Source of the DNA: a virus | Virus record (IMG/VR): IMGVR_UViG_3300020421_000119 | Span: 1 to 26,242 of that record | Reading direction: 5' to 3' (one strand) | DNA length: 26,242 bases | Part shown: piece after piece, positions 1-26,242 of the stretch | Position numbering within the stretch: the first letter of the stretch is position 1 | Layout of the letters: each line of letters opens with the position of its first letter | The notes under the pieces: generated by a model | What the model was told of the DNA's origin: nothing | Database searches by the model: none | The model's input: the letters and a program-made list of their open reading frames with translations, nothing else | Position numbers and translations under genes: made by a program

Positions 1-3000
1 CTAGAATAATCAAAGTTTGGACGTGGGTATGTGTGTCCTGCAGATGCTGCACTTACATTGATTGTAACTGAAGTTGCATTACAATCATCAACTGGAATGA
101 TTTGATCGTATGCATAATCTTTCTTCCATGTAACACCATTTGAAGTAGCACCAACAAATACGTGTGGATCAAGGTTTGTTGAAGGAACTGTTTCAAGAAC
201 CTGTACATCAAATGTATCTGTAGTTACGTTCCATATACGTAACCACTTACCACTTACTGGGTCACTAGCACGTGGATATGTTTTCTCTGCAGCAGCACCA
301 ACTGCACCACCAAATCCACAACTGAATGTTAATGAATCATCTGCAATTTTTATATAATCTCCATTCTTCCAACCATGATCAGCAATGGTCAATGTCATCA
401 CACCAGTTTCTGGAGTGTAAGAACCATCTGTTACTGTCTTCTGTTCAGTATCATTTCTTGGATAACTATGTGTTGTAGCATTATCATCTGCATCACAAGT
501 AAAGTCTAGAACACCAGCTGCTTGGAACTTAATAGCATGAGTTTGTTTTAAAGGAGGAGTTGCACTAACGAAAGTATGTGTGTCTGTATTACTAGAAGGA
601 GTTATATCTAAAATACGAACAGTTAATTCAGTAGAAGTTACATCATAAACTTCCAACCATCTTCCAGATACTGGGTCAGATGAACGTGGATAAGTCTTTG
701 TTTGATTACCAGAGGCAGCACCAACATTAACTGTTATTGTAGTAGCAGTTTGACCAGTTATAGCAAGAGCTGTATTGTATGATGGGTCTGTTGAACGTGG
801 ATAATAATGAGTAGATGCATGACTATCTGCATCACATGTAAATCCTAATTTATCAACACCAATTGTTACTGTATTAACTCCAGCAGTATAACTATGAGCT
901 CCAATGGTAAGTTCTAATGCACCATTAGAAGCATTGTAAGTTGCATCAGTAACATCATACTGACGAGTACCTATTGTAACTGCATTGGTTACTGTTCCAC
1001 TAACATACTTGTGTACTCCACTACCATATGTACAACTGAATGATAATGAATTATCTGGAATCTTAATCCATTGTCCATTATTCAATCCATGTGCACTAGC
1101 AAATGTATATGTTAATGTACCTGTAGTTGTATTGTAATCAACATCAGTTACAGCAGGAGTTGATACAGGAGCATTACTACTATTATTTGCACTAGATTCT
1201 GCTATAACTAACTCACCAGTTAAAGGATTGTAAGTTGTACCAGCTTCTGCATTTTTTAATGAACCACCAGCATCTACACCAGTATAGTAAACGTTTGTAA
1301 CAGTACCACCAACATAAGTGTGATTACCAATAGCACGATCAAGAGCACAGTTAAATATCAGAGAATTATCCGACATCTTAACAAAATCACCATTGATGAA
1401 TGGATGATTAGTAACTGTTAATGTAATCTTACCAACACCTGCATCATAAACAGCATTTGAAACTGTATGCTTACTAAGACCAACATTAGTAATTGCAATT
1501 GACTTACCAAATTGAGGATCAGATGCACGTGGATAAGAATGAATACTTTGATGATCATCCATATCACAAGTGAATGATAATCCACCAGATGCAAGAGTGA
1601 TATGCTTATCAACACCTAATCCATGTTGACCAATGGTAACAACCATATCGCCAGATACAGGATCATAAACTGCATCTGTAGGTTGGAAAGTTTTATCAGG
1701 AGGTGCTATACCAACGTTAACTGTAATAGTATTAGTACCAACAGCAGTTACATTAACTGATCTTCCAGAATATTTGTCGTGGCCAGGACGTGGATAAGTC
1801 TTAGTAGAATCATTACCATCCATTGCACATTTGAATGACAATGAATTATCATCAATAATGACACCAAATCCTGGACTCATATTATGTCCAGCACCAACTG
1901 TAAGTTCTAACTCACCAGTTGCAGGATTATAGGTAGCATCAGTTGGTGTCCACTGTTGATCAGGATCAGAAGTACCTACATTAACTGTAAATGTATCTGA
2001 TGTTGTAGCTGTAACTGCTAAAGAATTGCCATATGCAGTTTGACCTGATTGTGGTAGGTAGTGCTCTGTAGCATTACCATCCATAGCACATGTAAATGCA
2101 AATGATCTTGGTGATAGTCTTATACTATTACTTGTAGTAACACTATGACCAGGAACTGTCATGGTAAAGTTACCATTGGCAGGATCGTAAGAAGCAGTTG
2201 ATGGAGTTAATCTGGCACTAGGTGCAGCAGATGAACTATCAAGTGGAGTATCCCAATCTTCAAATTTAGGAATAGGTGATGTAAGTACAGTTGGGTCATA
2301 TACTAAAATCGTTCCACTTGTTGTAGCACTTACAAATACATGAGTGTTACCAGAAGCAGCTCCAGCAGCACCTACATTACAAGTAATTGTTGTTGATCCA
2401 CCAGAAGATTGAACATTAGTAATTGCAACTGACTTACCAAAAAATGGATCCGTTTCTCTTGGATATGAATCTTGTCCACTACTACCATAATTACAACTGA
2501 ATGTTAAAGAACCTGCTTTAAATGCAATCCTATCACCAGTGGTAGGCATTACAAGAGGATCTGGAATAACAATATCCATAGCACCAGTAGATGCTGTGTA
2601 TACTGCTCCTGTTGGTGTAGTCTCTACATACGAACCATTAGTCCAGTTACGTGATGCAGCAATAGCATAAGTCTTTGCTCTTTGATATGCATATGAAACT
2701 GCAGGTACTTCTGAAACTGGAACACCAGTTAATACATTTCCACTATAATAAGTTTCTGCAGCAGAAACAATACCATGGTTTCCACCAATAACTAAGTCTC
2801 TAAGTAACTGTTTAAGAGTATATTTTATATCTCTAGGACATTTTCTTTCTTCAACATTGCTGTGTCCTAAGAGAGGGAACGCTGCTTTAGTATCTTGATA
2901 TGCTTGGTCAGCAATTAGATCTGCGTTTCTAGCAATTAAGTAACCACCATCAATATAAGCAGTTGCAACCTCATTGGAAATTACATCAACCCATAAGTAT

Positions 3001-6000
3001 GATAATGTGTTAATAGCGTCTCTTACATTAGCACAGGCAGGGTTTCCAGCAGTTGTATTGATAATTGTGGTATCAAAATATCTGTTTAATGAAGAATATT
3101 TTGGAGCATAAACTGGATCTCCTGTAGTTCCATTTCCAGTTCTCCAATTCCTCATTGCAAGGATAGCTAACTGACGTGCATATTCAATAGCACGAATATT
3201 TTGAACTATCTCATCTTCAATATAATTAATTTTATCATCAATAATATATTTTTTAGAACCTTCAATAACATTATGGTTTGTTCCATATTCTAAGTCTCTT
3301 ACAAGAGCATTGATAAAGTGAATAACATCTTGCTTACATTGGTTATCTCCATCATCACCTACATTAGCTCCACTTACAGGAGCACTATATGAAGGGTATA
3401 CTTTGGTTCCAGAAGCACATGATATAAGAATATCAGCTAACTGAACCATACTATCTTCTGTAAGTCCAGTAATCGTTCCTGAGGTAGTTACAGTTGCAAT
3501 ACCAGTAACAGAGTAATCGTATATAAAATCAGTAACGTTGTAAGTTGATCCACCAAATTTTACTGTACCACCACTAACATAGGTATTAATATGATCATTA
3601 GTACCTAAGTAAATTTTAAAATCATTTGCTGATACATCCCATACACGGAAGTAATCACTCTTAAATTCTTCATTGATTCTTCCTAATACTTCATCAGCAA
3701 TAAACTCTCTGTTGTTACGTAGTAAAACACATGCGTCTTGGAATCTTCTACTTACTGGTGTTGATAATGGAAACTTGTTTGGAGAGTTTAGTAGTGATAA
3801 TGTAACTACTTTAGAGTATGACTTAACAGTAGCAAATTGACCTGGATCAAAATTAGCATCAGTAATTGCAGGGTATTTTTTAGGAATTACAAATCTTCTA
3901 GAACGACCATCAGCATCTTCTAAAATTTTGTAAATTCTTTGCTTACCATTTAATTCAGAAAGATCAGGAGCTGATGTTGGAAGACCTTCAATAAGAACTT
4001 CTTGACCTTCTCTATAATTATGAATATTACTTCTACCAACTAATTGGTTTGTATAGAATATAATACCACCACTATCTTCAGCATTACCAAATTGAGCTTC
4101 TTGGAATCCACCTTGAGTAATACTTGGATCACCCTGTAAAGAGAAGTCAATTCTTTGGATAGGCAGTGCTGTATCAAAATCTTCTTCTACTTCTGTAACT
4201 TCACCTTCTGCTCTAATTGATTTAAGACTTGTTGTATCAACACTTTGCTCAACAATATTTGCACCACTCATGGTGATGGTTTCTACTACTGCATTATCCC
4301 ATGACTTAGCACCAAGAATAGGTACAACTTCAATTATCCAATAACCATTAGAAACTTCATAATCATCATCAATTAATTTTACTTGATAAAAACCAGGTGT
4401 AGTTATTGTACTATTATCAGTATCATTCAAATGAATGTATGTTCCTGGAGGAATAAGAGTATCAGGATCAGAATCTACTCTGAACTTATTAGCTCCATCT
4501 GTTTGAGTTATATTAAGAGAAATCGCACTTCCTACTGTTCCACTAACAAGATAGTTAAAACGCTCACCTTCTAGGAAAGAACCACTGGTTAGAGTAACAT
4601 CTAATTTACCTGTAAGATATGCATCAGCTCCAACTGTAGTTGTAAATGAAACATCAATAATTTTTGCTCGTGAACCAGTGTTAACACCATAAACTTCCAA
4701 TCCAGTTTGAAGAGCATTACCTCCAGTGTTCTCTTGGAAATTTACTCGGAATTGATCTGGTCCAAAAACTTGGTGACCAACTGGGAATTTAAGACCAGCA
4801 TCTCCATTAGCATCAAGATCAATGACAACCTTTTGCTTGTCATCAAATACCATTGCATAATCCCAAGTAGCAACAGAATCACCAGTTGAGTCTATTTGGT
4901 CACGATAAGTAACACCAATCACATAGTTCTTATCACCAAACTTAACCATGTGTTTGCCAGGGTTGGCAGGTCTAATGATAACCAAACGTAGGTTGTCACC
5001 AACGATTGATGCATCAGGTGGTAATGAAATTGGGTTATCTTCTACATACTCACCACCAGAAACAATAATTGTTTCTTTAACACCAGGTGTTTCCCATGCT
5101 AATTGTGCCGCTTTCTTAACAGTTCTAACTGGGTTTACAGCAGATCTACCATCGTTAAGGTCAGAACCAATCTGTGCTGAAACATAAACACGACCACCAA
5201 CGTCATTCGTTGCTAGGTTAAGGACGTATTCTGTAGTTGCAATCTTGTCTGTTCTATCTCCCAACAAAGGAGTTATAGAACGTGGATATATACCTGATTC
5301 TCCAGTAGTACCATATCCAAATTCTGAAGCATCATTTGCACGGAAACCAATATGTTTGAAGGTAACTTCACCGTTTAATGCTTCACCATCAACATGTACA
5401 GGTGCAGAAGATCCAGTTTGTCCAGTGTTTAATGCTTGATATATGTTAGCACCGAAAAATCTGTAGTTATCTTTCTGAAGGATAACATTAGCAACCCATG
5501 CAGTACCAGTATTATTTGAAAATGTTTTTAAATTTGGTGCTCTAAAATTAGCATCAGGAGTAATAAAGTTATCAATATCAAGGTTCAGAATTCTTGCAGT
5601 ATCTGAAATGATAGAGGTTGATGTTCTAATAGCACCATTAATATCAAGTTCATAATCAACTGTATCAAGAGCTGAGGTTGCAGTTGCACCACCACCATTA
5701 CCACCAGAAATAGATACGCTTGGTGCTGTGGTATATCCAGAACCTGGATTGTTAACAGCAATATTTACTACTTGACCGTTAAAGATAAATGCGGATGCTA
5801 ATGCTTGTATACCACCTGCTACATCTGGAGCAGTGATATTAACAGAAGGAGGAGTTGTGTAACCAGAACCACCAGAAGTTATCGCTATAACGTTTACTCT
5901 TTCGCCAGTCCTATTAATACCAACACGAGGCAAATCCGTCGCTTCATCCAATTGAGCTCGGATGATCTCTTTCTCAGCAGATCCCGATCCCGCCCTAATT

Positions 6001-6077
6001 GTAAGTTCTTGGTCACCAATTAACGTTGGTTTTTGACCCCTAACGAATTCTTTGTCAGAATTAATATTAAAACTCAT
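1..6077 (-). CDS. Giant tail-fibre-like virion protein, 3' end outside window (at least 2025 aa)
   Basis: I translated this frame by hand from the ATG at 6075-6077 to the left edge and saw no stop codon, so the C-terminus is outside the window. The start is the first possible one: an in-frame TAG lies 12 nt upstream. Residues about 60-125 hold two G-S-G-Y-T-T-x-P beta motifs. About 275-300 has ATTEYV, typical of phage fibres, running into YVSAQIGSDLNDG and a P-x-R-T-V-K-K-A-A stretch, as at the start of pectin-lyase-like (DUF1565-type) beta-helices. About 914-1145 holds two copies of a helical module ending RNW. From about 1190 onward are repeated beta units with F-x-C and YPR signatures. It follows a late-promoter box and is probably transcribed alone in this window. 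I infer a fibre or baseplate-peripheral virion protein; no specific T4 homologue was recognised. No signal peptide or membrane segment is visible. Confidence 0.9.
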   Translation of the reverse strand, partial: MSFNINSDKEFVRGQKPTLIGDQELTIRAGSGSAEKEIIRAQLDEATDLPRVGINRTGERVNVIAITSGGSGYTTPPSVNITAPDVAGGIQALASAFIFNGQVVNIAVNNPGSGYTTAPSVSISGGNGGGATATSALDTVDYELDINGAIRTSTSIISDTARILNLDIDNFITPDANFRAPNLKTFSNNTGTAWVANVILQKDNYRFFGANIYQALNTGQTGSSAPVHVDGEALNGEVTFKHIGFRANDASEFGYGTTGESGIYPRSITPLLGDRTDKIATTEYVLNLATNDVGGRVYVSAQIGSDLNDGRSAVNPVRTVKKAAQLAWETPGVKETIIVSGGEYVEDNPISLPPDASIVGDNLRLVIIRPANPGKHMVKFGDKNYVIGVTYRDQIDSTGDSVATWDYAMVFDDKQKVVIDLDANGDAGLKFPVGHQVFGPDQFRVNFQENTGGNALQTGLEVYGVNTGSRAKIIDVSFTTTVGADAYLTGKLDVTLTSGSFLEGERFNYLVSGTVGSAISLNITQTDGANKFRVDSDPDTLIPPGTYIHLNDTDNSTITTPGFYQVKLIDDDYEVSNGYWIIEVVPILGAKSWDNAVVETITMSGANIVEQSVDTTSLKSIRAEGEVTEVEEDFDTALPIQRIDFSLQGDPSITQGGFQEAQFGNAEDSGGIIFYTNQLVGRSNIHNYREGQEVLIEGLPTSAPDLSELNGKQRIYKILEDADGRSRRFVIPKKYPAITDANFDPGQFATVKSYSKVVTLSLLNSPNKFPLSTPVSRRFQDACVLLRNNREFIADEVLGRINEEFKSDYFRVWDVSANDFKIYLGTNDHINTYVSGGTVKFGGSTYNVTDFIYDYSVTGIATVTTSGTITGLTEDSMVQLADILISCASGTKVYPSYSAPVSGANVGDDGDNQCKQDVIHFINALVRDLEYGTNHNVIEGSKKYIIDDKINYIEDEIVQNIRAIEYARQLAILAMRNWRTGNGTTGDPVYAPKYSSLNRYFDTTIINTTAGNPACANVRDAINTLSYLWVDVISNEVATAYIDGGYLIARNADLIADQAYQDTKAAFPLLGHSNVEERKCPRDIKYTLKQLLRDLVIGGNHGIVSAAETYYSGNVLTGVPVSEVPAVSYAYQRAKTYAIAASRNWTNGSYVETTPTGAVYTASTGAMDIVIPDPLVMPTTGDRIAFKAGSLTFSCNYGSSGQDSYPRETDPFFGKSVAITNVQSSGGSTTITCNVGAAGAASGNTHVFVSATTSGTILVYDPTVLTSPIPKFEDWDTPLDSSSAAPSARLTPSTASYDPANGNFTMTVPGHSVTTSNSIRLSPRSFAFTCAMDGNATEHYLPQSGQTAYGNSLAVTATTSDTFTVNVGTSDPDQQWTPTDATYNPATGELELTVGAGHNMSPGFGVIIDDNSLSFKCAMDGNDSTKTYPRPGHDKYSGRSVNVTAVGTNTITVNVGIAPPDKTFQPTDAVYDPVSGDMVVTIGQHGLGVDKHITLASGGLSFTCDMDDHQSIHSYPRASDPQFGKSIAITNVGLSKHTVSNAVYDAGVGKITLTVTNHPFINGDFVKMSDNSLIFNCALDRAIGNHTYVGGTVTNVYYTGVDAGGSLKNAEAGTTYNPLTGELVIAESSANNSSNAPVSTPAVTDVDYNTTTGTLTYTFASAHGLNNGQWIKIPDNSLSFSCTYGSGVHKYVSGTVTNAVTIGTRQYDVTDATYNASNGALELTIGAHSYTAGVNTVTIGVDKLGFTCDADSHASTHYYPRSTDPSYNTALAITGQTATTITVNVGAASGNQTKTYPRSSDPVSGRWLEVYDVTSTELTVRILDITPSSNTDTHTFVSATPPLKQTHAIKFQAAGVLDFTCDADDNATTHSYPRNDTEQKTVTDGSYTPETGVMTLTIADHGWKNGDYIKIADDSLTFSCGFGGAVGAAAEKTYPRASDPVSGKWLRIWNVTTDTFDVQVLETVPSTNLDPHVFVGATSNGVTWKKDYAYDQIIPVDDCNATSVTINVSAASAGHTYPRPNFDYS
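315..2500 (-). repeat. Nine degenerate protein repeats with one conserved Cys each
   Basis: Within the left giant protein, nine units share F-x-C in a short beta segment, usually preceded by 'DNSL' or a similar turn and followed 9-15 residues later by (S/T/Y)YPR or a decayed form (YLPQ, TYVGG, KYVSG). The Cys codons lie at 2493, 2088, 1827, 1566, 1347, 1032, 834, 495 and 318 (low coordinate). Spacing is irregular (177-405 nt), but two consecutive intervals are exactly 261 nt (87 codons). Two sub-types are visible: C-D/A-x-D followed by His before YPR, and C-x-Y/F-G. Linkers carry T-I-T-V-N-V-G and T-Y-N-P-x-T-G-x-L beta strands. A further YPR lies at about 20-31, so the array probably continues beyond the window. 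Confidence 0.85.
2643..3338 (-). repeat. Pair of helical modules (C-x-x-D ... RNW) in the left giant protein
   Basis: Copy 1 (3144-3338) begins CKQDVIHFINALVRDLEYG and ends AMRNW. Copy 2 (2643-2840) begins CPRDIKYTLKQLLRDLVIGG and ends ASRNW. Between them, near 3035, is a short helix CANVRDAINTL. The same module family occurs twice in the protein at the right edge of the window. The module is about 65-70 residues and predicted mostly helical, unlike the surrounding beta-rich sequence. Its function is unknown. Confidence 0.85.
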
Positions 6078-6625: not shown

Positions 6626-9600
6626 TTACTTCTTAGTAATATTATTGGTAATTGTAACTTTAACAGTTTGAGTTACCCCAACTGTATCTCCTAATGTAAT
6701 AGTTATACGAATATCGTTAGTTCCAGATATATCAAATGTAGGAACAATCAATTGTTGTCCTGTTCTAACATTACCATATTCAGTATGCCAAACATCAGTA
6801 CCATCATCTAAGAGTCCAAATTCAATAAACTCTGAATCACCTGTAGTTGGGTTCTCTGCACAAACAATTGTTTTAGCACCAAGACCACTTGTGTTATTGT
6901 ATATAACTGATGTACCAACATTATTTGTTCCCTTAACAAGATTAAACTTGTCTGTTAATATTTTAGTATCAGCAAGTTCAAACTCTTTAAGTTCACCATC
7001 AAATACTTTAACACCAGTATATGATCCAGTACCAAATGTAGTATTGAAGTAAACATCACCTTGATTGTCTAATCTCAATACTGGTTCAACATATAAACCA
7101 GAAGATAATCCAAGATCAAAGTATTGTTTTGCAGAATGTAAGAATGTAGTATCTGCTAAAGTGTTATCAAGAGTTGTAGCAGCTGCATCAAATGTCATTA
7201 ATGATGCAGTTATTTCAAGTTCATCTGAAGTTGTAGATACTATTGTATCAACAGTATCAAACTCTAATTGTGTTGTAGTAAGTCTTAATGAATTATTTCC
7301 ATCATTGTAGAAATATAATATGTTCTCGTTAGCACCAGGTGAAGTTTCTGGAATGATGTAAGTATTCTGATCAACGTCTTTAACACCACCAAGAGAACCC
7401 CAGTTAACCCCGTCATAACCTTCAAATAAACTATCAGTTGTATTAAACCTAACAGAACCTTGAGCAGGTGATCCTCTCTCTGCAGTAGTACCAACTGGAA
7501 CTACCAAGGTAGTTTTAATATCACATACAACTTTCTTTCCTGGAAGAGGAGATAGTGTTAAATCATTAACATCAGTTGTGATAATATTATTTTTAAGTCT
7601 TAAATCACCATTAATTACTAAATCAGTATTGCCCAATGGAGCAATTCTAAATTCTTCAATCTCTTCAAAAGTTAATGGAGCAACTGCTGTAGTAGAATAT
7701 CTTAAAGTTGCTGTTCCGTTTGTAAAGTCATTACCAGTAATATCTGTAGGAGGGTTAGCATCAGTTCCAGTCTGACCTCCTGCAACAACAAGGAATAAGT
7801 TATTGCCATATTTTACATAATCATCTGTAGCTACTGGACTATTAGCATTCCAATTAGTATGTGCTGGAGCAGATACGTTTACAGATCTTACTTTCTTTAC
7901 GTTTACAAATTCTTGATAGAACGGTGTAATTCTTATAGTGTTTTGAGCATCATTATAGAAATATAATGTATTATCATTTGCACCAACTGTTTCCTCTGCA
8001 AGAATGTAAGTATTGCCATCTAAGTCTCTAACTCCTCCAAGAGATGACCAAGAAGAAGTATTTGAAGCATAACCTTCATATTGACTTGTATCTGAGTTAA
8101 ATCTAATAGCACCAGCTACTGGACTTGGAGGTCTTTGAAGATCAGTTCCAACAGGAACTATAAGAGATTTTGTAGAATTTATTTTTACATCTTGACCAAC
8201 TGCTGGTGTTAGTTCAATGTCTGTTGTTGCACCACTTGAAATAACAGCATTAGTTATAAGTAATTTATCATTAACATTTATTGAATCTGCAGTCTTTATA
8301 ATACCTTGTGCTGTCAGATTACCATTAGTCCCATCAATACTTAATTTGCCAGGTCCAATATCAACTGAACCAGATAAATTAATATTTAAGTTTGTAGCAT
8401 TAAGAGCAAGGTTTGGTGATACTGAAGTTATAGAATCAGCAGTAATATTCAAACTACTAATAGTATTAGCAGATAATATACCTTGTACTGATAAACTATC
8501 AAACTCACCATCAGTTGCATCAACTGATACTGCTGTCCATTCTCCAGTTAAAATATTACCAGTTATACCAGAAAAAGTATCAATTAAAACTACAGATACA
8601 CTTAATCCAGAACCAAAAGTTACAGGGTTGTTTAGATCTATAGTGATTGTTGCTTCTGCGTTATCAGGACCACCAAGGTCTGCATTCTCACGTGAATAGT
8701 AGTATAAGCTTGGAGTCGTTGACTCAATTTTAATAGTTAATGCAGTATTAGTTCTAGTAACTCCAGTGTTATACTCAACACCAGCAAATGATAAAGTAGT
8801 AGATCCAGATGTTAATGGATTCCTACTTAAAGTAATAGTATTACCGACTACATTAGTTACCGTTGTTCCTGTTACTAATGTTCCTGATCCACCAGCAAAA
8901 GTAACTGTCATACCAACAAGAATTCCCGTGGCATTAGTTACACTTACTTGATTTGTAGTTACATCAAGAGTAGCAGTAAGATTTTGAATCAAACTAGGAG
9001 AATACTTACCATCTCTATATTGAGTAAAAGCAAGAGTCTCAGTTGACATAGAAGGATCTGAAACATCAAATTCATATGTTGATCCAGCATATAATGTCAA
9101 ATCTGGTGTCATTTGTAGACCACCACCAGTATTAACAAAGAATCTATCTTCACCTGAAGAAACAGTTGCTACAGTAACTTGTGTAGTTGCAGCATTTTCA
9201 AAAACATCAGCTACTGCAACAGAACCTTGTGCACCATCTAAGAATATTCTAGTAATATTTCCACCAGCAGTATCAGCTCTTATAATATCAAAACTAACTG
9301 CTGCACCTTCTGTTGGTACTGTTGTAATAGTATCTCCTGCAACTGCCCAACTTGCAGGAACTGTTCCACTAAATGTTACTTCAAGTACAGTCTTTTTAAT
9401 AACACTATATTGAATAGGTTGTACTACATCTTCTGGATCTACTGATAAAGTATTTCCTTCTTCATATCCTGTACCACCTTGTGCTATAGCAATATTATCT
9501 ACAACACCTAAGTTACCAACTGTATATGAAAAATCATCAGCAGGATCACCATATGCTGGTGTAAAGGTTAATGTTGCAGAACCTGCTGTTGTTGGTTGTG

Positions 9601-10864
9601 AAGATATTTGAATTATGTTATTAGCAGAAGCTAATACAGTTGATGCTGCTGCTAATACACCATTACCAGCAGTTTGAGTAACAACATCACCTACAAATAT
9701 AATACTAGAATCAGCAACATCAAATTCATCTAAAGAACCGATGGATGAGAAATCTAATGTTGCAGAACCAGCAACTGTTGGATTTGCTGATAACGTAAGT
9801 TGAGTTCCACTATCAATAGAAAGAACAGTTGTTTCAGCAGCAAGTTGTCCAGTATCAGATCCACCTTGAGTGATACTCATACCTGCAAGTATGCCTGTAG
9901 TATCAGCAATAGTGATTTGTGCTGTGTTAGTAGCCAATGTAGTTGCTACGCTAGCTACAGCACCTCTAAGGGTTGTAGTTATACCTGTCTGTGCTTGTGG
10001 TAGTGTTAGAACATCTCCAGTTTGATAGTTATTACCATACTGAGCTAATACAAAATTGGTTATAATACCTGGGTCTGAAGTTAGTGTCCATGTAAATCCA
10101 CTACCAGAACCAACTCCGTCAAAGTTAGCATTAGCACTTAAAACATCACCATTTACATAACCACTACCTTCTGCAGTAAATACAACCTCAATAACAGCAC
10201 CAGCAGCATCTGTAATAATATCTGCTATAGCACCTGCTCCACTGCCACTAACGTTAGTTATTGGTACATTATTGAAAGTTGTAGAAACAACATAACTACC
10301 ACCTCCAGCAAGAGTACCAGTAGCTAAACCATTAATATCAAAAGATATATTTGCTGCACTACCATTACCCCCTTGTAATAGAACACCAGAAAATGTTCCT
10401 GGATTATATCCAGAACCAAGGTTACTAACTGTTCCAGCATATGGAACAACACCTATGTTACAAGTTCCACTTCTACCAGAACCTCCTGTAAAAGCAATAC
10501 CAGAATAATCACCTGGTTCGTATCCAGAACCTGGATTTAATATTGATATACCAGCAGTTTGAAGTCTATTCTGAGTTAATTGAAAATCTTGAAGAACTTC
10601 TACTTTAAGATTTGAAAGATTTTGTACTCTTTTTCCCGAGCTAACAAAACCAAGTACACCAGATGATGGTCTGTAAAGACCTAAAAGGTTGTCATTATCA
10701 AAAGCAAGCGATGGACTACCAATGGTTCCATCACCTAGTTTTAAATTTCCTGTTGATAAATCAGATCCACCTTCAGTAATACTGAAAATTTGTTGACCTA
10801 TCTGATTAATTTTGACCCTTTGCGATTCAAAGGTGTCAGTTCTTTGTACTGCTACTGCTGGCAT
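6626..10864 (-). CDS. Modular tail-fibre-like virion structural protein (1412 aa)
   Basis: A complete ORF, Met at 10862-10864, overlapping the end of the 73-aa gene by 29 bp; an AGAGAG lies about 11 nt before the ATG inside that gene. Residues 1-95 are a unique N-terminus with F-S-I-T-E-G-G-S-D, likely the attachment end. Residues about 100-470 carry several G-x-G-Y motifs (GSGYEPG, GSGYNPG, GSGYVNG, GTGYEEG). Three copies of a beta module with T-T-G-I-L-x-G-M and S-G-S-T-T-L-x-F lie between about residues 300 and 700. About 900-1205 holds two tandem copies of a fibre module with I/V-R-F-N, EGY, LGGV-x-D, NTYI and LYFYND. The C-terminus is beta-rich and ends NNITKK. Internal R-F-N and EGY motifs are typical of phage fibre shafts. 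I infer a fibre or spike subunit; no T4 gene name is assigned. Confidence 0.9.
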   Translation of the reverse strand: MPAVAVQRTDTFESQRVKINQIGQQIFSITEGGSDLSTGNLKLGDGTIGSPSLAFDNDNLLGLYRPSSGVLGFVSSGKRVQNLSNLKVEVLQDFQLTQNRLQTAGISILNPGSGYEPGDYSGIAFTGGSGRSGTCNIGVVPYAGTVSNLGSGYNPGTFSGVLLQGGNGSAANISFDINGLATGTLAGGGSYVVSTTFNNVPITNVSGSGAGAIADIITDAAGAVIEVVFTAEGSGYVNGDVLSANANFDGVGSGSGFTWTLTSDPGIITNFVLAQYGNNYQTGDVLTLPQAQTGITTTLRGAVASVATTLATNTAQITIADTTGILAGMSITQGGSDTGQLAAETTVLSIDSGTQLTLSANPTVAGSATLDFSSIGSLDEFDVADSSIIFVGDVVTQTAGNGVLAAASTVLASANNIIQISSQPTTAGSATLTFTPAYGDPADDFSYTVGNLGVVDNIAIAQGGTGYEEGNTLSVDPEDVVQPIQYSVIKKTVLEVTFSGTVPASWAVAGDTITTVPTEGAAVSFDIIRADTAGGNITRIFLDGAQGSVAVADVFENAATTQVTVATVSSGEDRFFVNTGGGLQMTPDLTLYAGSTYEFDVSDPSMSTETLAFTQYRDGKYSPSLIQNLTATLDVTTNQVSVTNATGILVGMTVTFAGGSGTLVTGTTVTNVVGNTITLSRNPLTSGSTTLSFAGVEYNTGVTRTNTALTIKIESTTPSLYYYSRENADLGGPDNAEATITIDLNNPVTFGSGLSVSVVLIDTFSGITGNILTGEWTAVSVDATDGEFDSLSVQGILSANTISSLNITADSITSVSPNLALNATNLNINLSGSVDIGPGKLSIDGTNGNLTAQGIIKTADSINVNDKLLITNAVISSGATTDIELTPAVGQDVKINSTKSLIVPVGTDLQRPPSPVAGAIRFNSDTSQYEGYASNTSSWSSLGGVRDLDGNTYILAEETVGANDNTLYFYNDAQNTIRITPFYQEFVNVKKVRSVNVSAPAHTNWNANSPVATDDYVKYGNNLFLVVAGGQTGTDANPPTDITGNDFTNGTATLRYSTTAVAPLTFEEIEEFRIAPLGNTDLVINGDLRLKNNIITTDVNDLTLSPLPGKKVVCDIKTTLVVPVGTTAERGSPAQGSVRFNTTDSLFEGYDGVNWGSLGGVKDVDQNTYIIPETSPGANENILYFYNDGNNSLRLTTTQLEFDTVDTIVSTTSDELEITASLMTFDAAATTLDNTLADTTFLHSAKQYFDLGLSSGLYVEPVLRLDNQGDVYFNTTFGTGSYTGVKVFDGELKEFELADTKILTDKFNLVKGTNNVGTSVIYNNTSGLGAKTIVCAENPTTGDSEFIEFGLLDDGTDVWHTEYGNVRTGQQLIVPTFDISGTNDIRITITLGDTVGVTQTVKVTITNNITKK
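7257..8160 (-). repeat. Tandem duplication of a fibre module inside the 1412-aa protein
   Basis: Two copies, about 7908-8160 (N-terminal) and 7257-7501 (C-terminal), share the order V-P-V-G-T, (I/V)RFN, EGY, W-x-S-L-G-G-V-(R/K)-D, NTYI, E-x-x-x-G-A-N-(D/E)-N, LYFYND, N-(T/S)-(I/L)-R and (Q)EF. They are separated by about 135 codons that include an N-W-N-A-N-S-P segment. The layout suggests duplication of a whole shaft domain. Confidence 0.85.
8780..9962 (-). repeat. Three copies of a 'TxGIxxGM' beta module in the 1412-aa protein
   Basis: Copies at about 9745-9962, 9551-9718 and 8780-8985 share the order T-x-G-I-L-x-G-M (or I-F-V-G-D), a variable Gly-rich turn, T-T/S-V-L/T, L-T-L-S or a variant, and (A/S)-G-S-(A/T)-T-L-x-F. 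The middle copy has lost the opening T-G-I. One related copy occurs in the right-edge giant protein near 24855-24985. Confidence 0.75.
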
Positions 10865-11065: not shown

Positions 11066-14000
11066 CTAGAAAGATGCTACTGCTCTGATATCCTGAACCT
11101 TTGGAACAAATGCGGGATCAACACTAGTCATTACAATTTTAATAGCAAATGAACTGAATTCTTCTAAGTCAGAAATGCTATATTTAAGATCTTGATATGC
11201 AGATTGTTTCTCTACAACACTAGAAATACTATTCTCACTAGTTGCTAATTCTAAAACATCTGGTAATCCAGTTTCATTGAAGAAAGTCCAATCCAAATCT
11301 TCAAAGTTTTCTTGACTAGATGCTTTCTTTAACTTATAAAGAATCTTTATATCTGATATATCTTTAACAGTAGCTGTAAGATGAACATCTATAGATGTTG
11401 CAGGGTTATTAATTACAACCTCTTTAGTTACATACTTAGCAACAGCAGAACCATTTTTAGATGTATCTTCTCTTACAAAATCAACACCATTTGTATAAGT
11501 TATCTTACCAACTTCTAAGTAACTAGCTTCTTCATCTGGTTGATTAGGATACTTAGCAAAGTCACCTACACGGAAGATATCAACAATTTGATCTGCACTA
11601 ACTGCATTTCTATTGTATAGTACATTTGTATTAATAGAATCTGTGTAGTTGTCATTAATAGGTCTGGTATCAACCCTTAAAGTTAATTCTTGAGTCTGAC
11701 TATTCCATATAGTTGTTTTACCTGTGATAACATTATCATAAGTCTCAAGGATAATAGATGGATTACGTGCTACTACAGTAGAAGCATCACTAATTTGTGC
11801 AAAGACCTGTATTGGATTTGAATCAACTGTAACTGAAGTTAAACCAGTTTGATTTCCTAGATCAACTGTTTCTCCCTTCTGGAAGAATTGTGTAGTCTTA
11901 ACTCTTACATAAACAACACTACCATTAACTCTAGCAATTGTTCCTGTAGTTTTAGATGTTTTTCCTACTATAGTTTGATCAGCTTGTATCTCAGTACCAC
12001 CATTACCAGCAAGTTGGAATTGATATACTGGATAGAACTCAATAATTTGATCTTTTCTACCAAATCTATTTTCAGTACCAACTGGATTTTCTACTCTATT
12101 AGTAACTGTTTTAACAGTTGCACTTGAGAGATCAATAATTGGACTCAAATGAGACGCAGTAGATGAGATAGACATCTTATACATCAATGAACCAGCAATA
12201 CTATTGAGAGTTTCATTAATATCAGAAGCAACTATCTTTTGATTTGTAAAGTAGTGTGGTTCATTTAAGAATGTTTTTTCATAATCAGTTTGTGAGTATG
12301 AAGTATAATTCAATGTTGAAGAATCAACAGGAACTATATTTGTAGTTTTAACATTAGTATCTAATGTTGTACCAGTAAATGTTAGATAATGTATTTGAGG
12401 ATATAAAGTCTCAAATTTTCTATTATGACTTGCGTATACCATACTTCCACCACCAACAGAGTTTCCAGCTGCAGCAGATGGAGAATTGATGTTATAAGTG
12501 TCAACACCAGAATTGCTTATTTGGAATAGGTTGCTATTAATAGTAGATGCAGTAACACCACCTGTTGCTGTAGCAGTTCTATAGAATACATAAGATTTTC
12601 CACCATCTTCAAATCCATGATCTCTATGATTAACTTTCAATATTGCATTATTATTTTTAAATAATTTTGATTGTGAAGCAGAAGAAGAACTTGCATTAGT
12701 TTCTAATGGATTTACATCTAACAGTTCATAACCAACACTATCATTTTTAAGAACTAATTCAGCTGGTCTAGTAATATCAAATTCTGCACGATACAATTTA
12801 AACTTAAGATCTTCAAAATTATCTTCTGTCCAACTTTCGGTATTCTGGGAACGGTATACCGAACCTAAAGATGGTTGAGTTGTGATGACCGTACTAGTTG
12901 CAATATCAACTTCAGACAATCTAGAAACCCATAATTGATAATCAGTGGAATCTGTTTCTACAACTAATGCATATTCTGTATCATTCTGTAGATAAACTGG
13001 GAAGTCAAAACCAAAATGTGATGGTGTAGTAGAGTTTGTAACTTCACCTGCATCGGTTGCTACACCCATTCTAACTGCAGGTGTATCTATTTCTATATAA
13101 GTTTGAATTTCACACCCTCCAGCACCGTTACCAACCCCTTTAACAACAACTGATGGTGCTTCTGTATATCCAATACCACTCAAACTAATCTCAGCATTAT
13201 AAATTTGTCCACCAGATACTTCTATAGAAGCTGTTGCAGTGGATCCACCTGGAAGTTGAGGACTTTCAATAGTTAAAATAGCACTATCATAATTCTGTCC
13301 TGTATTAGTTACTTTAAGACTAGAAACTTTACCACTATCTTTTGCTATTGATAGAACAAGACTTGTTCCATTTAGTGCATTATTTGTGGTTACAGAAGGA
13401 ATAATTAAATCTTCATTAGCTTTAAATGATCTTCCATTATGATTACTTAATACAACTGTGTATACTTGCTCATTAGTAAGACTGTACTTACCAGATGCAG
13501 TAGCAACTAACTCTACATTGTTCTTATCAAATACTTTAAGTATAGGACCAGAAGCAGCAGAGGAAGCACCAGTTACATTTTCATTTTTATAGATTGATAT
13601 ATTACCACTAGCAAAACATCTAATGAAAGTATTTGGTGATAATACTTTTTCACTACCAGGAACAATATTCTTACCTGGTTTTTCAGAATCTACATTAGTA
13701 ATATATGCCTTAACTGGGATATTAGTGCTCTTCTTATTAAAGTAAAGATCTAAACCAGTTACAAAACATCCACCATCTAAATTTTCTACTTTAAATGTCT
13801 GTGCAAGAGGATTAGGTCTTACAGGATTATCAGTATTACTTTCAATTAATTGAACACCTTCATTAGATTTGAAGTAAGATGGTTTTGTGGATACAATACT
13901 TACTGGATTTTCTGGAAGAAGACCAGTAGCATAATATTTAATTTCTGTATAACTATCAACTAGTTCCTTACTTTCATTAGTTTCACTTGATGTAAACCTA

Positions 14001-21097: not shown

Positions 21098-24000
21098 TTA
21101 GCTAATTTGATACGGAATGATAGTCGCATTGTTTTCAATGCTTGTACTTCCGCTTTCTACAGTGCATCCAGTAAACTGTGTCGCTGTCTTTCCTGTATAT
21201 TTTATAATGCTGAGTGAACCGAAACTATCATGTAAAAGATAGCCTTCATCAGCAAAGTATGAAGTTGTTGCTACAACTAGAGAACCACCAATAGTACCAG
21301 AAGCACTTGATGAGAATGCAACTGGGTTTTGAATAGATGGAGGAACTAAGTTAAACTTATCTCCAGCAAGACTATAACTAGAATCTGCTCTCTCAGTAAA
21401 GTCAGCAATAGTTATAGTTGGGAAGTATTGGTCCATTAATCCCAAACTTAATCCAGAAACCCTAGCAGTACCATCATCAAATATACCATCAAAGAATGAT
21501 ATAGTATGTCCTGCATTAGTCTTAGTATATTGACCAATGTATTCAGATGTTATTCCAAATACTGCGTTGATAATTTCTATTTGAGTACCATCTCTCTGAT
21601 CAACATAATATCTATCTGCAACATCAATAACATCAACAGCATTACCATTTCTCTGAACAATAGGATCAGTAAGATATACTGTTTCTTCATATCCATCAAT
21701 CACACCACTTGGAGGTGGGATAATAACAACTTCAGTTGCTTCTCTTGTTACAGAGAAATCAGCAGGAGTTTCAATTTGTCTGAACGTCTTTCTTTCAACG
21801 CCACCAGCAGAAGCTGATGCACTTACCATAGTAACATCGCTTTCAGATTCAACTGTTACTACACCACCAAATGCAACTGTAATCTCAGGAATCTGTCTGA
21901 GGTAGGTACCTGCAGGCCATGTTTGAGGAGTTGTATTTTGACGACCTCTAAGAAGTCTTAAGAATCTATCTTCTAATTTACCATTATACTTAACAACCTC
22001 ATTACCAATCATCAACAATCCATAACCATCAAACTTAGTTGTATCAGCAACGTATGCTACATGTTCATTAACTTGTAGATCAACATCAAGTAATGCTGCA
22101 TTTTCAAAGTAGTTAACATTATCTAATGAATTATTTTCAATCTCAATATTAATATACTCAACTATTTGTCTACTCATTGTTTGAATAGAGTTGAGAGATA
22201 CAATATCCTGTACTTCAGCTTTAAGAACACTTTCAGAACCCTGAAGTTTTAATACACCACCTTCTCCTTCATACTGAACAGGTTCTGGTTCAATGTAAAC
22301 AATTTGAGCACCTTCAGTTGGAGGTTGTGACACATCATCAGTTGGCATAGTGCCATCAGAATCAGCAGCAATTACATTAGGTTTACCAGTTTGAATTATG
22401 TCATGAATATGACGGTCTACATCTGCTGGACTATCAATAGGAACAGAACTAATTGAATCAACACCTGCAACTTGATTAGCAAGAATATTGATTGTTGAAA
22501 TTGCTGACATTCCACTGATATTAACATCAGGGTTAACTCCAATATAGATTAGAGATACACCAATGTCTCTTTCAGATAAAATATCATATCTTCTAGATAC
22601 AATTACTTTTGGAGCTGTAGAATAACCGTCACCACCATTGATTAGATCAACACTGATAACTTGACCCTTACTGACTAGTACATTTGCACTAGCACCACCA
22701 CCATTACCATCAGCAGGAATAAACTCCAATACTGGAGGTGTTTCATATTGATATGCAGTTGGTTGAGTTAGTGGATCATAGCTACGTTGGTTCCATGTTA
22801 GTTTAGTAATGGATCCATTCTCAATAGTGGCGACTACTGAGAGACCCTCTCCTCTCGTGATTCCAGTATAAGTCTCAACTGAGACAACACCGTAAATATC
22901 ATCTGTTAATGTCTCTTTATTTCTACCATCCTTACTTGTAGCTTCATTAGGTAGTGTTTTAATTTTTCTAAATCCTTCTTCACCTTCTATTCTTATCTTG
23001 TCATTGTTAGCAAGATATGCAAATGGATACTTGTGTGTTTTACCTAAGAAAGTTCCAAACCATAAAGAATTATCATCAGTTAATATCTTTCTTCCTACAG
23101 AATCTAATTGGAAATCTAATAGTTCATTACTAATATCTTCAATGCTAAAGGTATATGTTCTGTCATATGCTCCTTTAACAGCAAATACAAAAGGTCTACC
23201 AGATTCAATTACAGTATTCTGACACTTCAAATCATATCCAACATTATTTCCAGATCTAAATGGATTTGATATCTCACCAATTATATTAATAGTACCATCT
23301 GCCATTGGTTGCCATACATGAACAGGACTACCAATCTTATCACCCATCCAAGCATACTTAAAGTAATCATTTAATGCAGATGTAGTTGCAGTAAATGTAA
23401 ATCTAGCTTTAGCAAAATATGTATCTGGAGCATAATCAAAGATATTAAGAACCTGACCAACATCTCTACCATAGAGATATCTAATGTCAACCTTCATCTC
23501 TTTCAACATAGGAACATTGAAAGTGATGTTAGGACCAGAAACTGTATATGAATACCCTTTTCTTTGAAGGATACCATCTATGAAGACATACATACTGTCT
23601 TCAGATTCAATACTTTGTACTGTGTTATCTTCTACGTCTAAAATTAAGAAAGGACCGTTTCTAACACCATCAACTAAATTATAGTCAATAGTAAGTCTCT
23701 TATAATTACCAACACCAATACCAACTACTTTCTCAACTGCAGTCGCTTCACCAAGTGTCTTAGCTCCAAAATCTTGATCCCAAATAGGAGCAACATCAAA
23801 TTTAATCTTGTTAGGAATGACCGTCCTATCTATTACATAAGAATCAAATAATGGATATGATTCTGTATACTTAGGACGTTGAAGTACAGCGTTAATTGTT
23901 AAGAATAAGTCTTCATCTATATCAGTATCAACTTCAGTATTATCATCCCAATATAATTCAAACTCTTTAGATTCACCATCAACAAAATCTGGTAATGATC

Positions 24001-26242
24001 TAGTTACAGACTTCTCTAAAATATTATCACTTAAATTATCATAAAGAGAATCAATTGCAGATATAACATTATTACATTCTTGGTCTATTAATAGTGGATC
24101 AAGAATAATATTATAATTTGAATATGTTAATGTGGGAGTCCAATTACCTCTCTTATTAGAATCTTGAGGTACCTTCTGTACTAAACCTTTACCTTCAGTA
24201 AGGATTGTGTTAAGAATTCCATTAAATGTATTAAGTGCACTTTCAACTTCAACACATGCTGGACTTTCACTATCAACAATAACATCAGGATCAGTTGTTG
24301 GTAACTGATTTCTCATTGCTTGAATCATTAGATCCTTAGCATAAGAGAATACAGCAAGTGTTTCTGTTAATTGTTCAGTAATGTAACTTACCTTTTCTGT
24401 ATCTGGATAGTCATCCTTTGTATAATAAAGTTGAGCAGCTTCAACAATTTTTTCATTACCACCAAATTGAAGATGATAAACATAAGCATCAAGAATTATT
24501 CCTAGATCTCTCTCACACTTAGTAGATGAAGCACCCCAATTAAGTGATGGGTATGTTGTTTGTGCCCAGTTTAATGATGTGGAAAGAATATATGCTCTAT
24601 TAAGTGCAATAAGTTGACCTCCCTTATAGAACTTTCCTCTTTGTACACCACTCCAAGAGAATGTTGCTTGTCCAGTACCAGTAAATGAAGTTGGAACTGT
24701 ATAAGTAGCACCAACAGCTACTTGGAAACTATTACCTGGTTCAACTATAGCAGTGCTAGTTGGGTTGCTTCCAGTTGCAACATCAGTACCAGATATACTA
24801 GTTTCTCCTACAGGTGCACCACCAGATTGACTTGAATTTGCTAATGCAACATTGGATAAAGTAACCTGAGTAAGTGAATCAATTGATATAATCTTAGTTC
24901 CTGAAGTAAATGCAGTACCAGAAGTTATAAACATACCAACAGCAAGATTGCTAGTATCACTCACTGTTACTGTATTAGATCCACCAAAATAGAGAACAGT
25001 TTGATCAATATAATCCCAATTTCTAATAGCAAGTTTTGCTAATCTAGTTGCATAACTAAAGACATCATTTGATTTTGTTTTATTATTCTGAATATACAAA
25101 TAATCATCATCACTATTAAAAATAGCAGAATAATCAACAGTCTTGATGTTACCACCAAATCTAATATCATGTTGATAAGCATCTAAGATTGCTCTGATAT
25201 CTGCTTCGTAATCATCTTGTTTGGTTGCCCAATCTAATGATGTATGAGTCTCTTTACCATAACCAACAGTTTCATTAATAATAAACTCTGCATTTCTTTC
25301 AATTTGATTTGCAGCATCAATCCATCTTCCACTACGTTGGAAAATATTTCTAAGTTTCTTTAAGTATTTTGTATTATATTGATCATCTTTAAACTGGAAT
25401 ATCTTACCGTAGAAAGTAACTCCTTTATAAGTAGAACCATTTTTAGTTCCTTCTCCTAGTGGAGGATTAGCAAATATAATCTGATCACCACTAATAGTAT
25501 AAGCAACTTCTGGTTCTTGAATAACACCATCAAGAGTAACTACAATCCCTTTAGCTGATGCAGGTGTAAATGCTGTACCCTGATCATCAAGAATTTGGAA
25601 TTGTGTGGTTCCTTGTAATCTACCATCAGTATCATAGTAACCATCAAATGTACCATTAATACTAAATTCAAAAGCACGATTTTCGTTAAATAAGAATTCA
25701 CTATTAGATGCTGATCCAACACCCTTACGAATTCTTGTATTCTCTACTTTCTGTGTAGTTTGAGTTAATACATGAGTTGTATTCTCAACAGTAATCCTAT
25801 TCTTTGCAGGATCCCAGAGTTGTATAACACTGAAATGTGATGCCTTTGGAAGTTCCTCAGGCATTGATGCTGTAGCATCAGTTTCAATATCTACTTGTCC
25901 AAATAGTTTAAATCCAGCTGGATGAGTAGTAGACTTTATTAAATCTCTCCACTGTTCAATAGGAGTTTTAGATTTAATAACATATGAATAATCTTGATAG
26001 AAATCACTATCTAATAGTTTCTGATTAGATACACCTAAACGTCCTTTATCAGAATTATAATAACCTAAGTTATCATAGAAACTAGTAATCTCTTCTGCAA
26101 ACGTAGTAACAAATATAGTTTTTACTATTGATAATACATTACTTCTTAATGTACTTTGTATAAAAACATTCTCTCTAATAGTACCATCTATCTCTCCTAT
26201 TTTAAGAAGGTTAGAACCCTTTCTGTATTCTACTACCTTTGC
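21098..26242 (-). CDS. Giant virion structural protein in the gene-7 position, 5' end outside window (at least 1714 aa)
   Basis: The first Met in the window is at 25862-25864, but the frame stays open for 126 more codons to the right edge, and that extension (with KTPIEQWRDLIKS and H-P-A-G-F-K-L-F-G) reads as normal protein. The true start is therefore outside the window. Residue numbers here count from the Met at 25864. About 105-137, 653-695 and 756-788 carry 'DGxLQ ... ITF' beta modules. About 219-283 and 450-520 are helical modules with FGGN and AxRN. A 'NLAVGM' beta module lies between them. G-G-D-G-Y is near residue 1070. Two 'GYLL / IxYxGK' modules lie toward the end, the last finishing IPYQIS. 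T4 gene order places gp7 immediately before gp8, so a baseplate-wedge role is plausible, but I see no direct T4 gp7 sequence match. Confidence 0.9.
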   Translation of the reverse strand, partial: AKVVEYRKGSNLLKIGEIDGTIRENVFIQSTLRSNVLSIVKTIFVTTFAEEITSFYDNLGYYNSDKGRLGVSNQKLLDSDFYQDYSYVIKSKTPIEQWRDLIKSTTHPAGFKLFGQVDIETDATASMPEELPKASHFSVIQLWDPAKNRITVENTTHVLTQTTQKVENTRIRKGVGSASNSEFLFNENRAFEFSINGTFDGYYDTDGRLQGTTQFQILDDQGTAFTPASAKGIVVTLDGVIQEPEVAYTISGDQIIFANPPLGEGTKNGSTYKGVTFYGKIFQFKDDQYNTKYLKKLRNIFQRSGRWIDAANQIERNAEFIINETVGYGKETHTSLDWATKQDDYEADIRAILDAYQHDIRFGGNIKTVDYSAIFNSDDDYLYIQNNKTKSNDVFSYATRLAKLAIRNWDYIDQTVLYFGGSNTVTVSDTSNLAVGMFITSGTAFTSGTKIISIDSLTQVTLSNVALANSSQSGGAPVGETSISGTDVATGSNPTSTAIVEPGNSFQVAVGATYTVPTSFTGTGQATFSWSGVQRGKFYKGGQLIALNRAYILSTSLNWAQTTYPSLNWGASSTKCERDLGIILDAYVYHLQFGGNEKIVEAAQLYYTKDDYPDTEKVSYITEQLTETLAVFSYAKDLMIQAMRNQLPTTDPDVIVDSESPACVEVESALNTFNGILNTILTEGKGLVQKVPQDSNKRGNWTPTLTYSNYNIILDPLLIDQECNNVISAIDSLYDNLSDNILEKSVTRSLPDFVDGESKEFELYWDDNTEVDTDIDEDLFLTINAVLQRPKYTESYPLFDSYVIDRTVIPNKIKFDVAPIWDQDFGAKTLGEATAVEKVVGIGVGNYKRLTIDYNLVDGVRNGPFLILDVEDNTVQSIESEDSMYVFIDGILQRKGYSYTVSGPNITFNVPMLKEMKVDIRYLYGRDVGQVLNIFDYAPDTYFAKARFTFTATTSALNDYFKYAWMGDKIGSPVHVWQPMADGTINIIGEISNPFRSGNNVGYDLKCQNTVIESGRPFVFAVKGAYDRTYTFSIEDISNELLDFQLDSVGRKILTDDNSLWFGTFLGKTHKYPFAYLANNDKIRIEGEEGFRKIKTLPNEATSKDGRNKETLTDDIYGVVSVETYTGITRGEGLSVVATIENGSITKLTWNQRSYDPLTQPTAYQYETPPVLEFIPADGNGGGASANVLVSKGQVISVDLINGGDGYSTAPKVIVSRRYDILSERDIGVSLIYIGVNPDVNISGMSAISTINILANQVAGVDSISSVPIDSPADVDRHIHDIIQTGKPNVIAADSDGTMPTDDVSQPPTEGAQIVYIEPEPVQYEGEGGVLKLQGSESVLKAEVQDIVSLNSIQTMSRQIVEYINIEIENNSLDNVNYFENAALLDVDLQVNEHVAYVADTTKFDGYGLLMIGNEVVKYNGKLEDRFLRLLRGRQNTTPQTWPAGTYLRQIPEITVAFGGVVTVESESDVTMVSASASAGGVERKTFRQIETPADFSVTREATEVVIIPPPSGVIDGYEETVYLTDPIVQRNGNAVDVIDVADRYYVDQRDGTQIEIINAVFGITSEYIGQYTKTNAGHTISFFDGIFDDGTARVSGLSLGLMDQYFPTITIADFTERADSSYSLAGDKFNLVPPSIQNPVAFSSSASGTIGGSLVVATTSYFADEGYLLHDSFGSLSIIKYTGKTATQFTGCTVESGSTSIENNATIIPYQIS
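21101..22053 (-). repeat. Two copies of a 'GYLL ... YxGK ... F' beta module at the C-terminal end
   Basis: Copy 1 (about 21937-22053) has F-D-G-Y-G-L-L-M-I-G-N-E-V-V-K-Y-N-G-K and R-G-R. Copy 2 (about 21101-21262) has F-A-D-E-G-Y-L-L, I-I-K-Y-T-G-K-T and F-T-G-C-T. Both share Gly-Tyr-Leu-Leu, a Lys-Tyr strand, a Gly-Lys turn and a following Phe. Confidence 0.65.
24074..25210 (-). repeat. Pair of helical modules (FGGN ... AxRN) plus two C-x-x-V helices in the right giant protein
   Basis: Copy A (25016-25210) begins YEADIRAILDAYQHDIRFGG and ends AIRNW. Copy B (24305-24517) begins CERDLGIILDAYVYHLQFGG and ends AMRNQ. They are followed by C-V-E-V-E-S-A-L-N-T-F (Cys codon at 24254) and C-N-N-V-I-S-A-I-D-S-L (24074). 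A 'TSNLAVGM' beta module is inserted between copies A and B. These match the pair at 2643-3338 in the left giant protein. Confidence 0.85.

Follow-up and report, generated by a model that had tools for sequence, protein, structure and literature searches.

Phycobiliproteins are known as antenna proteins, together with a few bacterial relatives (PMC10151467 for the latter). Among these relatives, the BBAGs (bilin biosynthesis-associated globins) are distant phycobiliprotein paralogues; two of them, BBAG-1 and BBAG-3, need no lyase for bilin binding and carry CXRD, the motif through which bilin-binding globins attach their pigment (PMC10151467). Cyanophages encode CpeT, a T-type lyase with a role described as unresolved (PMC3037559). 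Here, we analyzed a stretch of 26,242 bases (IMG/VR virus record IMGVR_UViG_3300020421_000119; hereafter, the window) that covers part of the baseplate and tail-fiber cluster of a T4-like marine cyanophage, with all genes on the minus strand. The element under study is a helical module that recurs in two giant structural proteins of this cluster, as copies L1 and L2 in the left giant and R1 and R2 in the right giant. Homology and predicted fold make us highly confident that this module is a phycobiliprotein-family domain with the bilin-binding globin fold, a kinship that the initial annotation of the window missed.

The family became visible only with a profile of the module core and then of an extended unit. 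Single cores of 65-72 residues searched against Pfam and the PDB, as well as whole giants searched against Pfam, gave nothing clear. A first clue came from the core profile: run against all of the PDB, it picked up alpha chains of phycocyanin and phycoerythrin, aligned at the bilin-attachment helix, with a best E of 0.07. A match of PF00502 to the helix upstream of R1 at 25265-25372 (E 9.6e-4 in a search of this one record) was the second clue. When a profile of 15 extended units was searched against the PDB (177,635 sequences), 60/60 best matches were phycobiliproteins, with a best E of 3.2e-6. Pfam named PF00502 in five of the 15 units (best E 4.2e-6), other families appeared for one unit apiece at E 0.06 or worse, and NCBIfam returned phycocyanin, phycoerythrin, and allophycocyanin subunits plus one flagellin match. 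The curated PF00502 cut-off of 22.2 bits was exceeded in S-WAM2 (26.6 bits), in S-RSM4 (22.5 bits), and, with pieces summed, in S-PM2; the units of the window score below it (R1, 14.3 bits). Of 29 phage records scanned, 16 gave PF00502 matches; each of the 16 bears the module, and the matches fall where the module sits in the giants. None of ten module-less phages gave a match.

HHalign matched a profile of 109 full units to six phycobiliproteins at 95.9% (E 5e-9) over 63 columns that include C-x-R-D, and controls consisting of a reversal and twelve column shuffles reached at most 0.4%. By group, the values were 93.6% for L2, 81.1% for R2, 64.9% for R1, and 1.3% for L1, in which an insertion separates the upstream helix. 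Of the six phycobiliprotein sequences of this comparison, the two that were checked scored 176-201 bits with PF00502; the PDB, Pfam, and NCBIfam searches are independent of them.

AlphaFold models of the R region (50 sequences; predicted local distance difference test [pLDDT] 77.8, predicted template modeling score [pTM] 0.68) and of the L region (59 sequences; pLDDT 84.6, pTM 0.79) both retrieved phycobiliproteins in Foldseek. For the R model searched against the PDB, phycobiliproteins filled ranks 2-50 at a probability of 0.99-1.00, one of these matches being named merely "bacterial fluorescent protein". Rank 1 (8eci, 64 columns) was discounted, since it matches only in part and presumably involves a beta domain. 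For the L model, the listed matches with a probability of at least 0.96 were phycobiliproteins, save for a designed fluorescent protein and a short match to a G1-ATPase; the remaining ones, F1-ATPases and similar proteins, had a probability mostly below 0.3 and a root-mean-square deviation of 25 Å or more (about 26 Å for F1-ATPase), and the F1-ATPase matches were rejected on these grounds. Single Foldseek E-values were modest (0.04-0.3), and the output does not resolve which unit a match covers. Based on these models, the unit is predicted to have the globin-like phycobiliprotein fold.

The window had previously been described as containing four related copies of a 65-70-residue module in two adjacent giants, and this relationship was confirmed. 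All copy pairs outscored shuffled sequences in Smith-Waterman comparisons (2,000 shuffles per pair; z 4.6 to 19.4), down to the weakest pair, L2-R1 (p 0.002). Moreover, phmmer connected copies across both giants (E 2e-4 to 8e-9), and none of the window's four remaining proteins gave a credible copy. The shuffled-sequence tests and the phmmer links across proteins reject the possibility that the similarity is one of generic amphipathic helices, and homology searches and AlphaFold models support that the common module is a genuine folded domain. The 65-70 residues, although real, are merely the middle part of a larger unit. This full unit starts about 35-45 residues before the module with a helix of the pattern D-A-A-x-x-I-x-x-N-x-x-x-I and closes with a C-x-x-V-x-x-A-I helix; the "second helix type" once noted near the module is present, but it is the last helix of the same domain rather than a separate element. 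No C-x-x-V last helix follows the L2 core within the window. Phycobiliproteins use an N-terminal helical hairpin (helices X and Y) in alpha-beta pairing; R1 has one extra helix ahead of the conserved upstream helix in its AlphaFold model, with none clear in the other units. The right giant thus reads R1, beta domain, R2, and then two C-x-x-V helices (Table 1), and in one reading R2 is possibly nested inside R1, with helix 24020..24076 serving as the last helix of R1.

Table 1. Features of the window (AF2, AlphaFold2).
Feature	Position	Strand	Remarks
Left giant	3..6077	-	2,025 residues, 3' end cut by window; tail-fiber family phrog_5342; holds L1 and L2
L2 unit (upstream helix and module core)	2637..2963	-	C-P-R-D, Cys codon 2838-2840
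L2 module core	2637-2843	-	left giant
L1 last helix	2979..3035	-	conserved Cys (C239) at helix N-terminus
L1 module core	3138-3338	-	left giant
L1 Cys codon	3336-3338	-	C-K-Q-D: Cys and Asp retained, Arg lost
L1 inserted beta domain	3396..3653	-	~85 residues, between upstream and module helices; model strands 33-118
L1 upstream helix (DACVLLRNNREFIADEV..)	3666..3746	-	sequence; AF2/DSSP helix 2-28 of model of window 2487-3749
1,412-residue structural protein	6626-10864	-	
DUF4815 protein	11066-19162	-	
166-residue structural protein		-	same cluster
gp8	19223-21037	-	PF09215
Right giant	21098..26242	-	1,714 residues, 5' end cut; structural protein; holds R1 and R2
Extra C-x-x-V helix	24020..24076	-	Cys invariant in 55 sequences
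R2 unit (upstream helix, core, last helix)	24191..24634	-	C-E-R-D, Cys codon 24515-24517
R2 last-helix conserved Cys (C409)	24254-24256	-	codon
R2 module core	24305-24520	-	right giant
R1-R2 intervening beta domain	24656..25009	-	model strands 156-275
R1 unit (upstream helices and core)	25010..25384	-	PF00502 match 25265-25372; Tyr replaces Cys (DYEAD)
R1 module core	25010-25213	-	right giant

Kinship with phycobiliproteins alters what the conserved Cys and Asp of the module are likely to mean. The pattern formerly written C-x-x-D is the C-x-R-D bilin-attachment motif; C-x-x-D had been ascribed to all four copies, which holds for L1, L2, and R2 but not for R1, where the Cys is absent. Among 15 diverse units with 23-48% identity to the first unit, just four residues are invariant: the Cys, the Asp, one Asn, and one Tyr. 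C-x-x-D is kept in 63/63 L1-type copies. Of the 192 copies outside the L1 and R1 groups, 176 keep C-x-x-D and 147 have CxRD, which L2 and R2 of the window also carry. The Cys is invariant in L1 and is kept in all 59 L2 sequences. An invariant Cys also opens the last helix (C239, C409, and C469 in model numbering), and both cysteines lie within 110 residues of each other in 165 of 313 copies. In beta subunits, Cys-β153/155 is the site of T-type lyases (PMC10452541), and we infer from the models that the last-helix Cys may be its topological equivalent.

The four copies first reported are far from the total. With an iterated profile, the window together with five of six phage loci yielded 25 copies; a wider profile scan of cyanophage loci gave 345 matches, 262 of them distinct, and the addition of whole-genome matches brought the distinct copies to 313. 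In complete genomes, 13 of 20 records contained 3 to 13 copies and six of eight further records contained 2-3, so that module-bearing phage genomes carry 2-13 copies each. The open frames that hold significant copies range from 928 to 7,312 residues in length and, where annotated, encode baseplate wedge, tail fiber, short tail fiber, or structural proteins. The module was not found in T4, pelagiphage HTVC008M, or Ma-LMM01. In the sampled cellular genomes, a one-subfamily scan that was not exhaustive found it in just three contigs of a Rhodobacteraceae bin ("Rhodobacteraceae bacterium Water_Bin34"; L171, L172, and L173), which encode the cyanophage module. These are probably misbinned cyanophage contigs, and the scan therefore revealed no cellular reservoir. 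A tree built from 61 copies placed R1 (support 100/99) and L1 (99/85) each in a single clade across phages; R2 formed a weak clade (79/60), and L2 required two changes. Old duplications kept apart in their places fit best with this sequence tree. For S-PM2, the RefSeq record has 16 tRNA genes (NC_006820 168556-173383; L008:18557-23384) within its 11-kb gene for the short tail fiber; ARAGORN found no tRNA inside this gene and nine just upstream (L008:13383-15303), and the RefSeq annotation looks shifted.

We then compared the occurrence of the module with that of bilin-related genes in 26 cyanobacterial myoviruses. CpeT was present in 18 of 19 module-bearing phages and in none of seven module-less ones (Fisher p about 1e-5), counting S-ShM2 CpeT with summed pieces and ACG-2014f CpeT on annotation plus tblastn. 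The cpeT gene lies within a few kilobases of the module-rich giant in S-PM2, Syn1, S-WAM2, and S-RSM4, and tens of kilobases from module giants in P-HM1, P-SSM4, and others. No CpeS lyase was found in these phages. A 2017 JBC (Journal of Biological Chemistry) paper on phage CpeT reportedly found that the lyase binds phycoerythrobilin (PEB), with no transfer to a host subunit. A bilin reductase occurs in four of the 19 module-bearing phages, distant from the giants where coordinates are known; by host, it was present in 3/3 Prochlorococcus and 0/14 Synechococcus isolates, in a small sample of related phages from which two of unknown host were excluded. As a partner gene of the module, the reductase was rejected for lack of overall tracking, since P-SSM2 and S-SSM7 have a reductase and no module. 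Marine strains of one phage cluster carry an S-type lyase, cpcV (PMC10665884); S-B68, taken as a member of that cluster, has no module.

We propose that a phycobiliprotein-family domain was built repeatedly, long ago, into giant baseplate and tail-fiber proteins of marine T4-like cyanophages. The phage-encoded T-type lyase CpeT would join a linear tetrapyrrole to the unit cysteines in the cytoplasm of the infected cell, and this bilin would be PEB or phycocyanobilin, supplied by the host or by phage PebS/PcyA. Loading would precede or accompany tail assembly, giving a virion with a set of pigmented domains. In the simplest role, the bilin would make the domain more rigid and gate its assembly, much as in phycobilisomes, whose assembly is described as requiring chromophore attachment ("mandatory"; PMC2327270). 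Taken as a whole, the proposal that phycobiliprotein-family domains of tail and baseplate giants are pigmented through phage CpeT comes close to an even call. The step in which CpeT loads the unit cysteines during infection, so that the virion carries pigmented domains, seems plausible at somewhat short of even chances, and a general picture of marine T4-like cyanophage tails and baseplates as chromoproteins with CpeT-attached bilins is offered more tentatively still. If true, the proposal would account for the lyase of these phages and for the bilin reductases of some Prochlorococcus phages. The units suggest an acceptor for cyanophage CpeT, and the virus particle may be pigmented in part. 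Light-dependent adsorption has been reported for several marine cyanomyoviruses (PMC2984593). Light sensing by the units in adsorption would be a further step and is speculation; we consider it quite unlikely that a bound pigment is the light sensor behind this behavior.

Several observations weigh against pigmentation. To our knowledge, no structural protein of a phage has been seen to carry a bilin. R1 lacks the module Cys in 55/55 aligned sequences (DYEAD for KCxRD), L1 copies lack the Arg of C-x-R-D, six R2 orthologues lack the motif, and sequence profiles do not significantly align the last-helix Cys to Cys-β155. As for the lyase, neither CpeT nor CpeS was detected in S-SKS1, the sole exception to the association, which bears a module in a 928-residue frame (L229, NC_020851 17466-17663); ACG-2014f CpeT scores under the Pfam cut-off; and the window is a fragment from which the CpeT status of this phage is not readable. 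Furthermore, on a gp23 tree the presence labels need just 2-3 independent changes. The association with CpeT is therefore suggestive, not independent proof, and we rejected its use as independent evidence: the phages are related, and shared descent could lie behind it. The Cys loss in the R1 units, which persist all the same, and the S-SKS1 exception keep alive the main rival, in which the captured fold serves, without any bilin, as a sturdy helical spacer or oligomerization domain of long tail proteins, with Cys, Asp, and Tyr needed for folding or packing and CpeT acting on host antennae, as usually assumed. The beta domains inserted in L1 and between R1 and R2 also suggest such building-block use, and we regard this pigment-free scaffold as a serious contender, not far below even chances. 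However, conservation at the pigment-site Cys and Asp exceeds that of almost every other core position, and in five of the six R2 orthologues the loss of Cys takes Arg and Asp along, which fits the loss of a site and not of a packing residue. These six variants (L067, L071, L073, L075, L077, and L079) form a natural comparison set; five read YYPxQMR and one is of the FYPLQMR or LCEKLIG types nearby, and their last-helix Cys is still invariant.

The two cysteines could instead bond with each other, as a disulfide or metal pair of the module and last helices in the extracellular virion, with no role for a bilin. Their joint invariance in L1 and their proximity in 165/313 copies would suit such a pair, but in six R2 orthologues the module Cys is gone, even as all 55 sequences retain the last-helix Cys, and L2 keeps its Cys in 59/59 sequences despite having no C-x-x-V helix after it within the window. 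In the phycobiliprotein fold, moreover, the two bilin-site positions are far apart, and we consider this pairing very unlikely. Least credible is chance or convergence, that is, an unrelated helical phage domain with a similar short C-x-R-D helix: although the significant sequence alignment covers only about 60 residues, single Foldseek E-values are modest, and L1 alone reaches 1.3% in HHalign, two helices match in the correct order and spacing, the PDB, Pfam, and NCBIfam searches put phycobiliproteins first, structure searches concur, and shuffled and reversed controls fail. The initial annotation had explained the shared modules by exchange between paralogous genes or by a docking surface that both proteins share in the baseplate. 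Two adjacent structural genes do carry the module, as do other giants, but the copies of the 61-copy tree group by position and not by genome, leaving recent exchange unsupported, and no common partner is known for docking; we find this explanation improbable.

The baseplate and tail-fiber setting first assigned to both giants was borne out by the neighboring gp8 and DUF4815 genes and by gene order in relatives. The order gp25-gp6-giant-gp8 is found in relatives, and a broadly similar order in S-WAM2, S-RSM4, and Syn1 (all Kyanoviridae) sets the right giant between gp6 and gp8, the place of gp7; its counterpart is annotated gp7 in some relatives. The likeness to gp7, the T4 baseplate wedge protein, is one of gene position. 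In Syn1, a small structural gene precedes gp8. Elsewhere in the cluster, the end of the left giant (46-2613) holds diverged repeats with the pattern F-x-C-x-x-D/G...H-x-Y-P-R, partly at a 261-base spacing. By eye, the beta domain between R1 and R2 (VTVSDTSNLAVGMFITSG...IISIDSLTQVTLS) is like stretches of the 1,412-residue protein (ITIADTTGILAGMSITQG...VLSIDSGTQLTLS), and further domains may be common to several proteins of the cluster.

A search of the open-access literature, with most subscription papers beyond its reach, found no prior report of phycobiliprotein domains in phage structural proteins. PHROG families 5342, 4406, 701, 18802, and 4527 include units and are annotated at the whole-protein level as tail fiber or virion structural proteins, with the domain unnamed. 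Cyanophage CpeT (PF06206) is an enzyme and a proposed partner, not a homologue of the module. BBAGs, which we liken to the units by description and not by sequence, are stand-alone bacterial proteins, whereas the phage units are domains of structural proteins; BBAG clusters include heme oxygenase and pre-PcyA, while the phage bilin reductases, where coordinates are known, lie far from the giants. The units are like phycobiliproteins (PF00502; alpha and beta subunits of phycocyanin, phycoerythrin, and allophycocyanin) in the upstream helix, the predicted helix order, and the C-x-R-D bilin-attachment helix ending in G-G/G-D. Phycobiliproteins, however, are free antenna subunits of 160-180 residues in cyanobacteria and algae, whereas the phage units are very diverged repeats in tail proteins of up to thousands of residues, some with beta insertions and one, R1, without the Cys. 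As a repeated domain of virus tails, the phycobiliprotein fold gains a new place and a new use.

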